The position numbers and the translations under genes were made by a program. From positions 1 through 35,260 of the forward strand of contig JAHLWX010000011.1 of assembly GCA_019057675.1 (NCBI GenBank): a stretch of 35,260 bases of DNA, written 5' to 3'. Source of the stretch: Candidatus Jordarchaeum sp. LHC_1308 (GTDB lineage Archaea; Asgardarchaeota; Jordiarchaeia; Jordiarchaeales; Freyrarchaeaceae). Every line of letters begins with the position of its first letter. The first letter of the stretch is position 1. Shown piece after piece: positions 19,973 to 22,709 of this stretch. The notes below the pieces were generated by a model. The model did no database searches and had not been told where the DNA came from. It worked only from the letters and a program-made list of their open reading frames with translations.

Positions 19973-21937
19973 ATGGTTGAAAAAGAGAAAAAAGCAGAGG
20001 AGCCTGTCATTGGCGTCTACGTTTGCAAGTGCGGCGTTAACATCGGCGGCGTCATAGACACAGAAGCTGTGGCGGAGTACGCGAGTAAGCTGCCAAACGT
20101 TAAGGTGGCAAAGACGTATTCGTTCTTCTGTTCCGACCCTGGACAAAAGATGATAAAGGAAGATATTGAAACGCAGGGTATTAACAGAGTGGTCGTTGCA
20201 GCGTGTACACCCAAAATACACGAGCCAACATACAGGGCTTTACTGCAATCAGCAGGACTAAGCCCATATTTCCTTGAAATGGTGAATCTAAGAGAGCACT
20301 GCTCTTGGGTTCACATGACCGATCCACAAGCAGCAACTGAAAAGGCTAAGAAGCTTGTAGCTGCAGGTGTGGCGAGAGCTAGAGTGCTCGAAGATGTGCC
20401 CCAGAAGAGGTTACCTGTCAAACCTGCCGTCATGGTTATAGGTGGAGGTATTGCTGGAATAAGCGCCGCTCTGAGCGTTGCGAACCATGGAATAAAGGTT
20501 TACCTTGTAGAAAAGGAGGCGACTATTGGAGGACTGGCGGTTCGCTTAGACAGGACTTTTCCGACGGATGACTGCGCTATCTGAATACTGGCGCCGAAGA
20601 TGGTTGAGGCTGCTAAGCACCCAAACATCGAGATACTTTCCTACACGGAAGTGCTAGACGTTAAAGGGATACCGGGATCCTACACCGTGAAACTTCTTAA
20701 GAAGCCAAGATACGTTGATGAGAAAAAGTGCACCGGGTGCGGTAGCTGTACAGAGGTGTGCCCTGTAGCCGTGCCCGACGAGTTCAACTACGGTTTGGGC
20801 TACAGGAAGGCGATCCACATACCATTCCCTCAAGCTGTACCCAAGGTAGCCTTAATATCTATGGACGATTGTATTCAGTGTAAGTCTTGCCAAAAGGAGT
20901 GCAGAGCGGGAGCGATAGACTACGAGCAGAAGCCAGAGGAAATAGAGTTGACCGTTGGGAGCATAATAGTTGCAACAGGATTCGAGATCTACGATATATC
21001 TAAATATGGCGATTACGGCTATGGGCGGTTCGAAAACGTCATAACTCAAATAGAGCTGGAGAGAATGCTAAGCCCCACCGGACCTACAGGAGGAAAAGTC
21101 GTCAGGATATCAGACGGGAAACACCCGAGACGCATAGCGATGATACAGTGTGTTGGGTCAAGGGACGTGAAGAGAAACCCCTACTGCTCAGAGGTTTGCT
21201 GCATGGTGGCCATCAAGAACGCCAAAATCATAAAACAGGAAAGCCCTGACACCGAGGTGATCATATTCTACATGGATATCAGAGGAATAGACGAGGGACA
21301 TGAAGAGTACTACCTGGCGACACGCGAGTACGGAGTAGTGTTTGTGAGAGGAAGAGTGGCAGAGGTCATAGAGGATCCGGAAACTAAGAGCCTCAAGCTC
21401 CTCGTCGAGAACACGCTCACCGGAGAGTTGCTGGAAACAGAAGTAGACTTACTGGTGCTTTCAGCTGCCGTAGTACCATCTGAGGGAACAAAGAAAATAG
21501 CACAGATTCTGGGGCTGAATAGGATGCCAAGTGGCTTCCTAGCGCCACAACATGTTGCACTAAACCCGCAGGAAACGAAAAGTCCAGGGATATACATCTG
21601 CGGAGCAGCATTGGGACCGAAGAACATACCGTATGCTGTTTCAAGCGCCAGAGCTGCGGCAGCAGCGGCTACAGCATGGACGCTTTCAGGAGAAGTTGCG
21701 GTGGAAATGATGATTCCAGAAGTGAATAAAGAGCTTTGCGTTGGTTGCAGAAGATGCGAAAGAACGTGTCCCTTCGGAGCCATAAAGGTCGTGGACGGAA
21801 AAGCGGTAGTTAGTGAGGTGCAATGTAAGGGATGTGGTTCATGCGTCGCTTCATGCCCGGCTCATGCGTTAGACATGCGCTACTACAGAGACAAGCAAAT
21901 TATAGAGGAGATAAAGGCAGCAATCAAGGTTCATTAA
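19973..21937 (+). CDS. hdrA: CoB-CoM heterodisulfide reductase-like subunit A (HdrA), predicted selenoprotein: UGA at 20582-20584 read as Sec
   Basis: Two same-frame ORFs (19973-20584, 20600-21937) separated only by TGA: [27 protein letters not shown]; FAD motif VMVIGGGIAGISAALSVANHG; ferredoxin motifs CTGCGSCTEVCP, CIQCKSCQKEC, CVGCRRCERTCP, CKGCGSCVASCP. Confidence 0.88.
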
Positions 21938-21951
21938 GTAAAGGTGGTCTT

Positions 21952-21997
21952 AGCCTATGAATGCGCTGGCAAAAGCTTTAGCCCAGCGTGGGAGGCT
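21952..21997 (+). promoter_or_regulatory. Candidate SECIS element of hdrA (3'UTR)
   Basis: AGC / TGAA (21958-21961) / TGCGCTGG : loop CAAAAGCTTTAGC : CCAGCGTG / GGAG (21991-21994) / GCT; 8-bp helix, 13-nt loop with AAAA. Confidence 0.65.
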
Positions 21998-22075
21998 CTG
22001 GCTAGCGGCCAGATGACCTATTTATTCATCTTCCCTCTTTTTCGTCTGCCCGTAGATGCTTATTGAAGAGTAAAT

Positions 22076-22088
22076 GTTTTATAATACT
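22076..22088 (+). promoter_or_regulatory. Putative TATA-box promoter of vhuD
   Basis: tgttttataatac about 35-40 bp upstream of the vhuD ATG at 22120. Confidence 0.4.
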
Positions 22089-22119
22089 GTTTGAAACAGT
22101 CCACCGAGGTGCTGTTAGC

Positions 22120-22530
22120 ATGCCCACGCCAAGCTTCAACATAATATCTTTCTGTTGCTGGAAGTGAGGCTATGGTGCAAGCGACTTAACAGGGGTTTCT
22201 AGGGTTCAGTATGATCCTTCAGTGATAGTAGTGAGAGTCAAATGCACCGGCAGAGTCGATGTCAAACATATTCTGGAGGCTATAAGGCAGGGCGCTGACG
22301 GCGTCATGGTCGTCGGATGTCACCCCGGTGAGTGCGACTTTGGAGATGGAAACATGAAGGCACGCCAACGTGTTGAGTTCGCAAAAAAGGTGCTCGACAA
22401 GGTTGGCCTGGGAGGAGATAGAGTCAACATGTATAATGTTTCGGCAGCTGAAATCGGAAGATTCAGGGACGCTATAATGGATATGATTGAAAAGCTAAAG
22501 AAAATTGGTCCAAACCCGTTAAGGGGGTAA
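22120..22530 (+). CDS. vhuD: F420-non-reducing hydrogenase-associated iron-sulfur subunit D (VhuD/MvhD), predicted selenoprotein: UGA at 22165-22167 read as Sec
   Basis: MPTPSFNIISFCCWK-U-GYGASDLTGVSRVQYDPSVIVVRVKCTGRVDVKHILEAIRQGADGVMVVGCHPGECDFGDGN; aligns by eye with FCCNWC/U-SYGGAD of the MvhD/VhuD family; ORF track lists only 22222-22530. Confidence 0.88.
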
Positions 22531-22558
22531 CGAGTAATCGATTGGTAGGAGGATGTTT

Positions 22559-22605
22559 GGGATGAGCCTCAGGCCGAAAGTGAGTGTGCTTGAGGTGACT
22601 GGCCC
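22559..22605 (+). promoter_or_regulatory. Candidate SECIS element of vhuD (3'UTR)
   Basis: GGG / A-TGAG (22563-22566) / CCTCAGGC : loop CGAAAGTGAGTGT : GCTTGAGG / TGAC (22596-22599) / CCC; 8-bp helix and 13-nt loop as in the hdrA element. Confidence 0.65.
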
Positions 22606-22709
22606 TCGTAAGCGGTGGGCCAATTCAAAATTAAATGATAAAGTATCGCTTGTTAAGAACGAGACGAGGAGATTTGGAGGTGTTACGACTTTAGCTTTGA
22701 TCGCGGAGG

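Follow-up and report, generated by a model that had tools for sequence, protein, structure and literature searches.

Selenocysteine genes and their downstream hairpins

The window, a stretch of 35,260 nt that makes up one entire contig of a metagenome-assembled genome (MAG; assembly 1.9 Mb, 84% complete), carries hdrA and vhuD, each with an in-frame UGA and each followed by a hairpin in its 3' untranslated region (UTR). The host belongs to the Asgard class Jordarchaeia, not to Lokiarchaeota. The features of the locus are as follows.

19973..21937, + strand: hdrA, selenocysteine (Sec)-containing heterodisulfide reductase subunit A, 654 aa with U204; frame continuous with TGA read as U; NCBIfam HdrA2, 1.2e-260
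20582..20584, + strand: Sec codon UGA of hdrA, context FPTDDCAIUILAPKM (U204)
21952..21955, + strand: 5' strand AGCC of helix I in the hdrA SECIS, pairing with GGCU at 21994-21997 in the minimum free energy (MFE) fold
21958..21994, + strand: hdrA SECIS hairpin with UGA/GA quartet, 8-bp helix II and 13-nt CAAAAG loop
22120..22530, + strand: vhuD, Sec-containing, 136 aa with U16; Pfam FlpD, 1.9e-45; NCBIfam VhuD, 3.3e-53
22165..22167, + strand: Sec codon UGA of vhuD, context FCCWKUGYG (U16)
22563..22599, + strand: vhuD SECIS hairpin with quartet, matched by the descriptor and, at 22555-22620, by covariance model R2

The reading frames of both genes are intact on either side of the TGA. When named genomes were scanned with a DNA pattern for Sec-HdrA, 118 stretches showed the hdrA TGA in this context, and among the matches listed nearly all come from Asgard MAGs; the vhuD TGA is present in all same-genus vhuD genes. 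Same-genus VhuD proteins harbor a second Sec (VVGUHPGEC) where the VhuD of the window has Cys (VVGCHPGEC), and at the Jordarchaeum loci L135 and L147 hdrA and vhuD apparently form one fused frame through a Sec codon. Sec-HdrA also occurs on records named Bathyarchaeota Bin_245 (L090, L100) and Bacteroidales CSMAG_1791 (L069), which are probably misnamed or contaminated MAGs. The genome encodes SepSecS (1.9e-141), PSTK (8.4e-42, below the curated cut-off) and, adjoining SepSecS, an archaeal-type EFSec (PF21440, 3.5e-21) whose gene is truncated at the contig end; its SelD itself contains Sec (HGUACK).

The two hairpins named in the first-pass annotation are real and of a known kind: every string and coordinate of both was found as given there, along with the 5' UGAN/3' NGAN quartet, the 8-bp helix II and the 13-nt loop opening with C-R-AAA-G. 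In the hdrA element, UGA lies at 21958-21960 and GA at 21992-21993, helix II spans 21962-21969/21983-21990 (8 bp, the two basal pairs being U.G and G.U) and the apical loop is CAAAAGCUUUAGC (13 nt); in the vhuD element, UGA at 22563-22565 is followed by an 8-bp helix II, the loop CGAAAGUGAGUGU (13 nt) and then GA. Both share an AUGA_GA core, an upper stem of 8 bp with 0 mismatches and a 13-nt loop starting with CRAAAG, and they lie 1.37 kb (hdrA) and 0.4 kb (vhuD) from the respective Sec UGA. The 3-bp helix I proposed for both elements holds in part: the unconstrained fold of hdrA contains it with 4 bp (AGCC/GGCU), whereas no equivalent was found in vhuD.

Run over both strands of the 35 kb, a strict descriptor ([AG]UGA, N, 8-9 perfect pairs, a 10-14 nt loop with an early AAA, N, GA) had two matches in total, exactly the hdrA and vhuD elements, and matched forty dinucleotide shuffles of the window 0.025 times on average (maximum 1). 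The folding energy of the vhuD hairpin is exceptional (z -3.6) and that of the hdrA hairpin is not (z -0.42), so that energy alone is decisive for vhuD only. The origin of the sequence from a MAG, together with the unremarkable energy of the hdrA hairpin, could suggest that chance produced the hairpins and that the UGAs are stops due to a pseudogene or to sequencing. However, the recurrence of the TGA in relatives, the intact frames, the presence of Sec machinery and the position of each of the two strict motifs just past a Sec gene make this reading exceedingly improbable.

Four genus members and family f2 have homologous elements, with differing stems, after both hdrA and vhuD. Elements of the same genus and order retain the quartet, the AAA loop and a helix II of 8-9 bp of different sequence, and some same-genus hdrA elements have AUGA_AA instead of AUGA_GA. 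The first-pass view that the layout and the 3' position are kept while helix sequences differ is thus borne out, and a lack of conservation in homologous 3' UTRs, which would have spoken against it, was looked for and conservation was seen. The recurrence in relatives and the Sec machinery of the genome likewise support a eukaryote-like SECIS identity. The identical 13-nt loop geometry, put forward as a conserved feature, is a coincidence, given that same-genus loops range from 11 to 17 nt and stems from 8 to 9 bp. A covariance search with Rfam SECIS families yielded no SECIS family even at E 10, either in the full window or in the 0.8-kb stretch alone.

An outer helix and a third hairpin in Asgard SECIS

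The two-helix eukaryotic layout assigned earlier to the elements is incomplete, as it overlooked an outer helix (P1) and a third hairpin (P3), whose positions in the window are listed below.

21946..21949, + strand: 5' strand GGUC of outer helix P1, hdrA SECIS; pairs with 22015-22018 in the unconstrained MFE fold, with other complementary pairs in relatives
21997..22013, + strand: accessory hairpin P3, UCUGGC-UAGCG-GCCAGA, hdrA SECIS; predicted by MFE, conserved in the genus and family f2
22015..22018, + strand: 3' strand GACC of outer helix P1, hdrA SECIS; predicted by MFE
22600..22622, + strand: accessory hairpin P3, UGGCCC-UCGUAAGCGGU-GGGCCA, vhuD SECIS; predicted by MFE, identical in four genus members

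The unconstrained MFE fold of the hdrA region contains P1 (GGUC/GACC), helix I, helix II and P3, and that of the vhuD region contains helix II and P3. The three-way topology in the MFE folds is clear for hdrA, even though its P1 is weak at only 4 bp, whereas the P1 of vhuD is weak or absent in the window, where it competes with P3, and unclear across the genus Jordarchaeum. In family f2, the vhuD P1 is strong (GGUUACC/GGUAACC).

Evidence for the additional helices also comes from relatives across the Asgard archaea. The flanks of 91 non-redundant hdrA and vhuD elements were listed and scored for P1 and P3 jointly, since a greedy search for P3 had picked wrong hairpins in some Lokiarchaea. P3 begins 0-6 nt past the 3' GA and is followed by a strand complementary to the sequence just upstream of AUGA; these two strands form P1. 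The joint pairing score was 27.1 for the 91 elements and 14.1 in dinucleotide shuffles, and the P1 score fell from 15.3 to 8.7 when upstream strands were swapped between elements. The P3 loop, centred on NGCR, contains GC in 81 of the 91 elements, compared with 16% of hairpins from shuffled flanks; these elements are related, and such counts are not independent events. Of 14 selD elements, 13 could be scored by descriptor, and these have P1 and P3 (pairing 28.2 vs 13.2). A MAFFT alignment of Jordarchaeal hdrA elements, in which helix II is shifted by one column between families, was excluded from the pair counts. At Lokiarchaeal loci such as L022, L024 and L200, the TGA of the AUGA quartet is in frame with vhuD, and such genes may have their own stop inside the SECIS core or undergo readthrough for a few residues.

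Covariance models extended the comparison. Model R1, built with P1, helix II and P3 from 18 elements of one Lokiarchaeal subgroup, retrieved 48 elements at E up to 0.01 from 100 sources, none of which supplied its training sequences. In the alignment of these 48, all 17 pairs of the three helices show two-sided change in at least one place, 93.0% of cells are paired (68.0% when shuffled, 39-56% when slid) and the covariation score is 0.611 (0.194 shuffled), figures to be read with the tendency of covariance-model alignments to lean towards their own structure. A further, partly overlapping set obtained with R2 gave covariation of 0.87 (0.22 shuffled) and similar pair counts. The covariation check at homologous loci that had been suggested for the hairpins thus came out positive for P1, helix II and P3 across Asgard relatives.

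R1 found neither window element in the genome itself. R2, built from the 48 R1 elements, one of them from the genus of the window and none from the window, gave a single match at E up to 1 among the candidates scored in the same genome, namely the vhuD SECIS at 22555-22620 (E 0.005). Over 12 genomes, those strong R2 matches that could be checked mostly lie after Sec vhuD genes. The 23 loci intended as a negative control (98 kb) contained one R2 match (E 2e-6), directly after an unannotated short vhuU gene with Sec (MVEVDPKLL...RAYDCULGCGAH...) on contig C14 of the same genome:

G000:C14:20553-20620 (L182:2876-2943): vhuU SECIS with P1 and P3, CCCCC-AGCA-GGGGG; R2 match

The Sec vhuU and its SECIS likewise occur in three genus relatives, and the element places the motif, with both added helices, at a further Sec gene of the genome. 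The window's hdrA element was recovered by neither R1 nor R2, and R2 did not find the selD SECIS, which are too different; consequently, the membership of hdrA and selD rests on the descriptor, relatives and folding.

A distinctly unlikely alternative is that the elements are simple two-helix Asgard eSECIS of type I and that P1 and P3 form a separate neighbour, such as a terminator or an mRNA-stability hairpin. The published model comprises a simple lower stem, the quartet, the upper stem and the apical loop and goes no further (PMC11227280), P3 sits at the 3' end of the mRNA, and in some Lokiarchaea the 3' strand of P1 continues into a U tract. However, P1 pairs sequence preceding the quartet with sequence following P3 and covaries, and therefore encloses the SECIS and P3 in one structure. 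In addition, UUUU within 10 nt after P1 occurs at background frequency (14% of elements vs 13%), which speaks against a plain terminator, and a terminator has no need of the GC kept in the P3 loop. Judged from sequence comparison, each Asgard SECIS appears to be larger than published, with a covarying P1 and a 3' P3 hairpin that would enclose the quartet hairpin in a three-way junction.

One element per gene and the decoding machinery

In Jordarchaeia, hdrA and vhuD each have a SECIS of their own, and the two genes are separated by 183 nt in the window (~180 nt in the genus). This spacer contains a candidate promoter.

22068..22087, + strand: GAGTAAATGTTTTATAATAC, a genus-conserved, BRE/TATA-like block before vhuD, seen in the alignment; candidate separate vhuD promoter

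The block is probably vhuD's own promoter, and separate transcription of vhuD is probably the reason for one SECIS per gene. The competing view is that one of the two SECIS suffices for both genes, leaving the other redundant. In most Lokiarchaeia the spacer between hdrA and vhuD measures 10-60 nt and a single SECIS follows vhuD, and one SECIS can serve several UGAs. However, both elements are under pairing constraint in two Jordarchaeal families, and the 183-nt spacer with its TATA-like block suggests separate transcripts, which renders a shared element rather unlikely here.

A search with RF01852 in the 84%-complete MAG and three same-genus genomes recovered ordinary tRNAs only, and the best tRNA-Sec candidate (46 bits, G001) is a tRNA-Leu. 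Since tRNA genes of the genome carry introns, an intron-split or divergent tRNA-Sec may have been missed by this search. A separate feature concerns selD: all seven Jordarchaeal genes examined (that of the same genome, G000:C20 L051, and L234, L242, L232, L233, L235 and L236) contain an insert of ~30-34 nt, stop-containing or frame-breaking, between ..DVY and A[KI]G[AG]T.., and this insert is absent from the selD of Njord, Loki and f13. Five inserts, folded without constraints, each formed a hairpin with arms of differing sequence; several took a bulge-helix-bulge (BHB) shape, and a cut inside the 3-nt bulges restores the frame. The insert is apparently a pre-mRNA intron of BHB type that interrupts a protein gene, a case known in archaea from crenarchaeal cbf5.

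Relation to known SECIS and proposed recognition

Mariotti et al. 2016 reportedly described eukaryote-like SECIS in Lokiarchaeota and related them to the archaeal VhuD SECIS. Huang et al. 2024 (PMC11227280) had already published this eukaryote-like element class from Asgard archaea, and Sun et al. 2021 (PMC9723677) had reported eukaryote-like SECIS in Jordarchaeia, so there is precedent for the basic identification. The window elements share with type I eSECIS-like elements the position in the 3' UTR of hdrA, frhD (vhuD), frhA or selD, the AUGA_[G/A]A core, an upper stem of 7-15 bp, an 8-20 nt loop beginning with an unpaired A, and Sec machinery in the host. Each lies after a Sec gene and has a 5'-GA_[G/A]A-3' core preceded by AU or GU, an upper stem within 7-15 bp and with no more than 2 mismatches, and an 8-20 nt loop with an early unpaired A; SecS, EFSec, PSTK and SelD were all four found, EFSec truncated and PSTK below the curated cut-off. 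Type I as published comprises the core, upper stem, apical loop, internal loop and a simple lower stem, whereas here a covarying P1 also surrounds a P3 with an NGCR loop. Moreover, hdrA and frhD almost always share one common element in Huang et al. 2024, whereas here each gene has its own. The three-helix form is a variant that extends to the whole of the known Asgard SECIS class.

Eukaryotic SECIS have in common with these elements the AUGA_GA sheared quartet, the unpaired AA(A) at the apical loop and the 3' UTR location, but the elements described here have P3 inserted as a third helix on the non-bulged strand and match no Rfam SECIS family. They depart from the eukaryotic two-helix form in that P3 is conserved and covaries in relatives and is predicted in both window elements. 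The eaSECIS of methanogens (GAA_A; Methanococcales and Methanopyrus) likewise lie in the 3' UTR, with a kink-turn-like core and Sec in hdrA, vhuD and selD, whereas the window elements have a long helix II and lack the GAA_A bulge followed by three S-S (C/G) pairs: in hdrA, UGAA is followed by U.G, G.U and C-G, and vhuD has GAG, not GAA. A review assigns one apical loop to Lokiarchaeal SECIS (PMC9499178), and the literature consulted, Mariotti et al. 2016 and supplements aside, mentions no third hairpin in Asgard SECIS and gives no earlier description of a k-junction for SECIS. By definition, a k-junction is a kink-turn with a third helix on the non-bulged strand (Wang et al. 2014, PMC4005666), and known examples are TPP riboswitches and rRNA (PMC4005666). 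The Asgard topology read from pairing, P1-linker-quartet/P2-P3-P1', is the same.

The reading we favor, with a probability of about 0.85, is that each element is a 3'-UTR SECIS directing Sec insertion at the UGA of its own gene and that the working unit is a three-way junction. Within it, a short linker on the 5' side would join P1 to the AUGA_[G/A]A quartet and helix II, a kink-turn arm with an unpaired AAA apical loop, and P3, with its NGCR loop, would lie on the non-bulged strand between the quartet and the 3' strand of P1, the topology of a k-junction. The kink-turn would most likely be bound by an L7Ae-type or still unknown protein, a partner proposed because SBP2 has not been found in archaea. 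Contact with aEFSec would be made by the AAA loop. By stacking on P1, P3 would set the direction of the arm, and its loop would dock, as a second contact, to EFSec or the ribosome. What the analysis shows are the two Sec frames, the genes of the machinery, the conservation and covariation of P1, helix II and P3 among relatives, and the close tie of the elements to Sec genes. The Sec insertion activity of the elements, the role of P3, the protein partners, the coaxial stacking and the separate transcription are what we infer. Asgard genomes are reported to contain no SBP2 (PMC11227280), and in M. maripaludis a Lokiarchaeal SECIS showed no activity (PMC11881835), which is consistent with a host-specific partner.

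Archaea must recognise SECIS without a known SBP2, and the group proposed to connect them with the eukaryotic system is the Asgard archaea. For the recognition site still missing from this picture, the conserved third arm, whose loop motif is close to invariant, offers a concrete candidate, and it may bear on why a Lokiarchaeal SECIS failed in M. maripaludis. The arm concerns the known Asgard SECIS class beyond this contig, published models (Mariotti et al. 2016 and supplements aside) do not include it, and the three-helix model makes genome-wide SECIS detection possible in Asgard genomes, as the unannotated vhuU exemplifies. More tentatively, and at slightly less than even odds, Asgard SECIS in general (hdrA, vhuD, vhuU and selD) may be k-junctions, kink-turn SECIS that cannot do without the third hairpin; the NGCR loop of this hairpin would act as a second site of recognition and take on part of the job of SBP2, and eukaryotic SECIS may be the stripped form of a three-helix archaeal ancestor. 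If this is general, models of the origin of eukaryotic SECIS must include helix loss.
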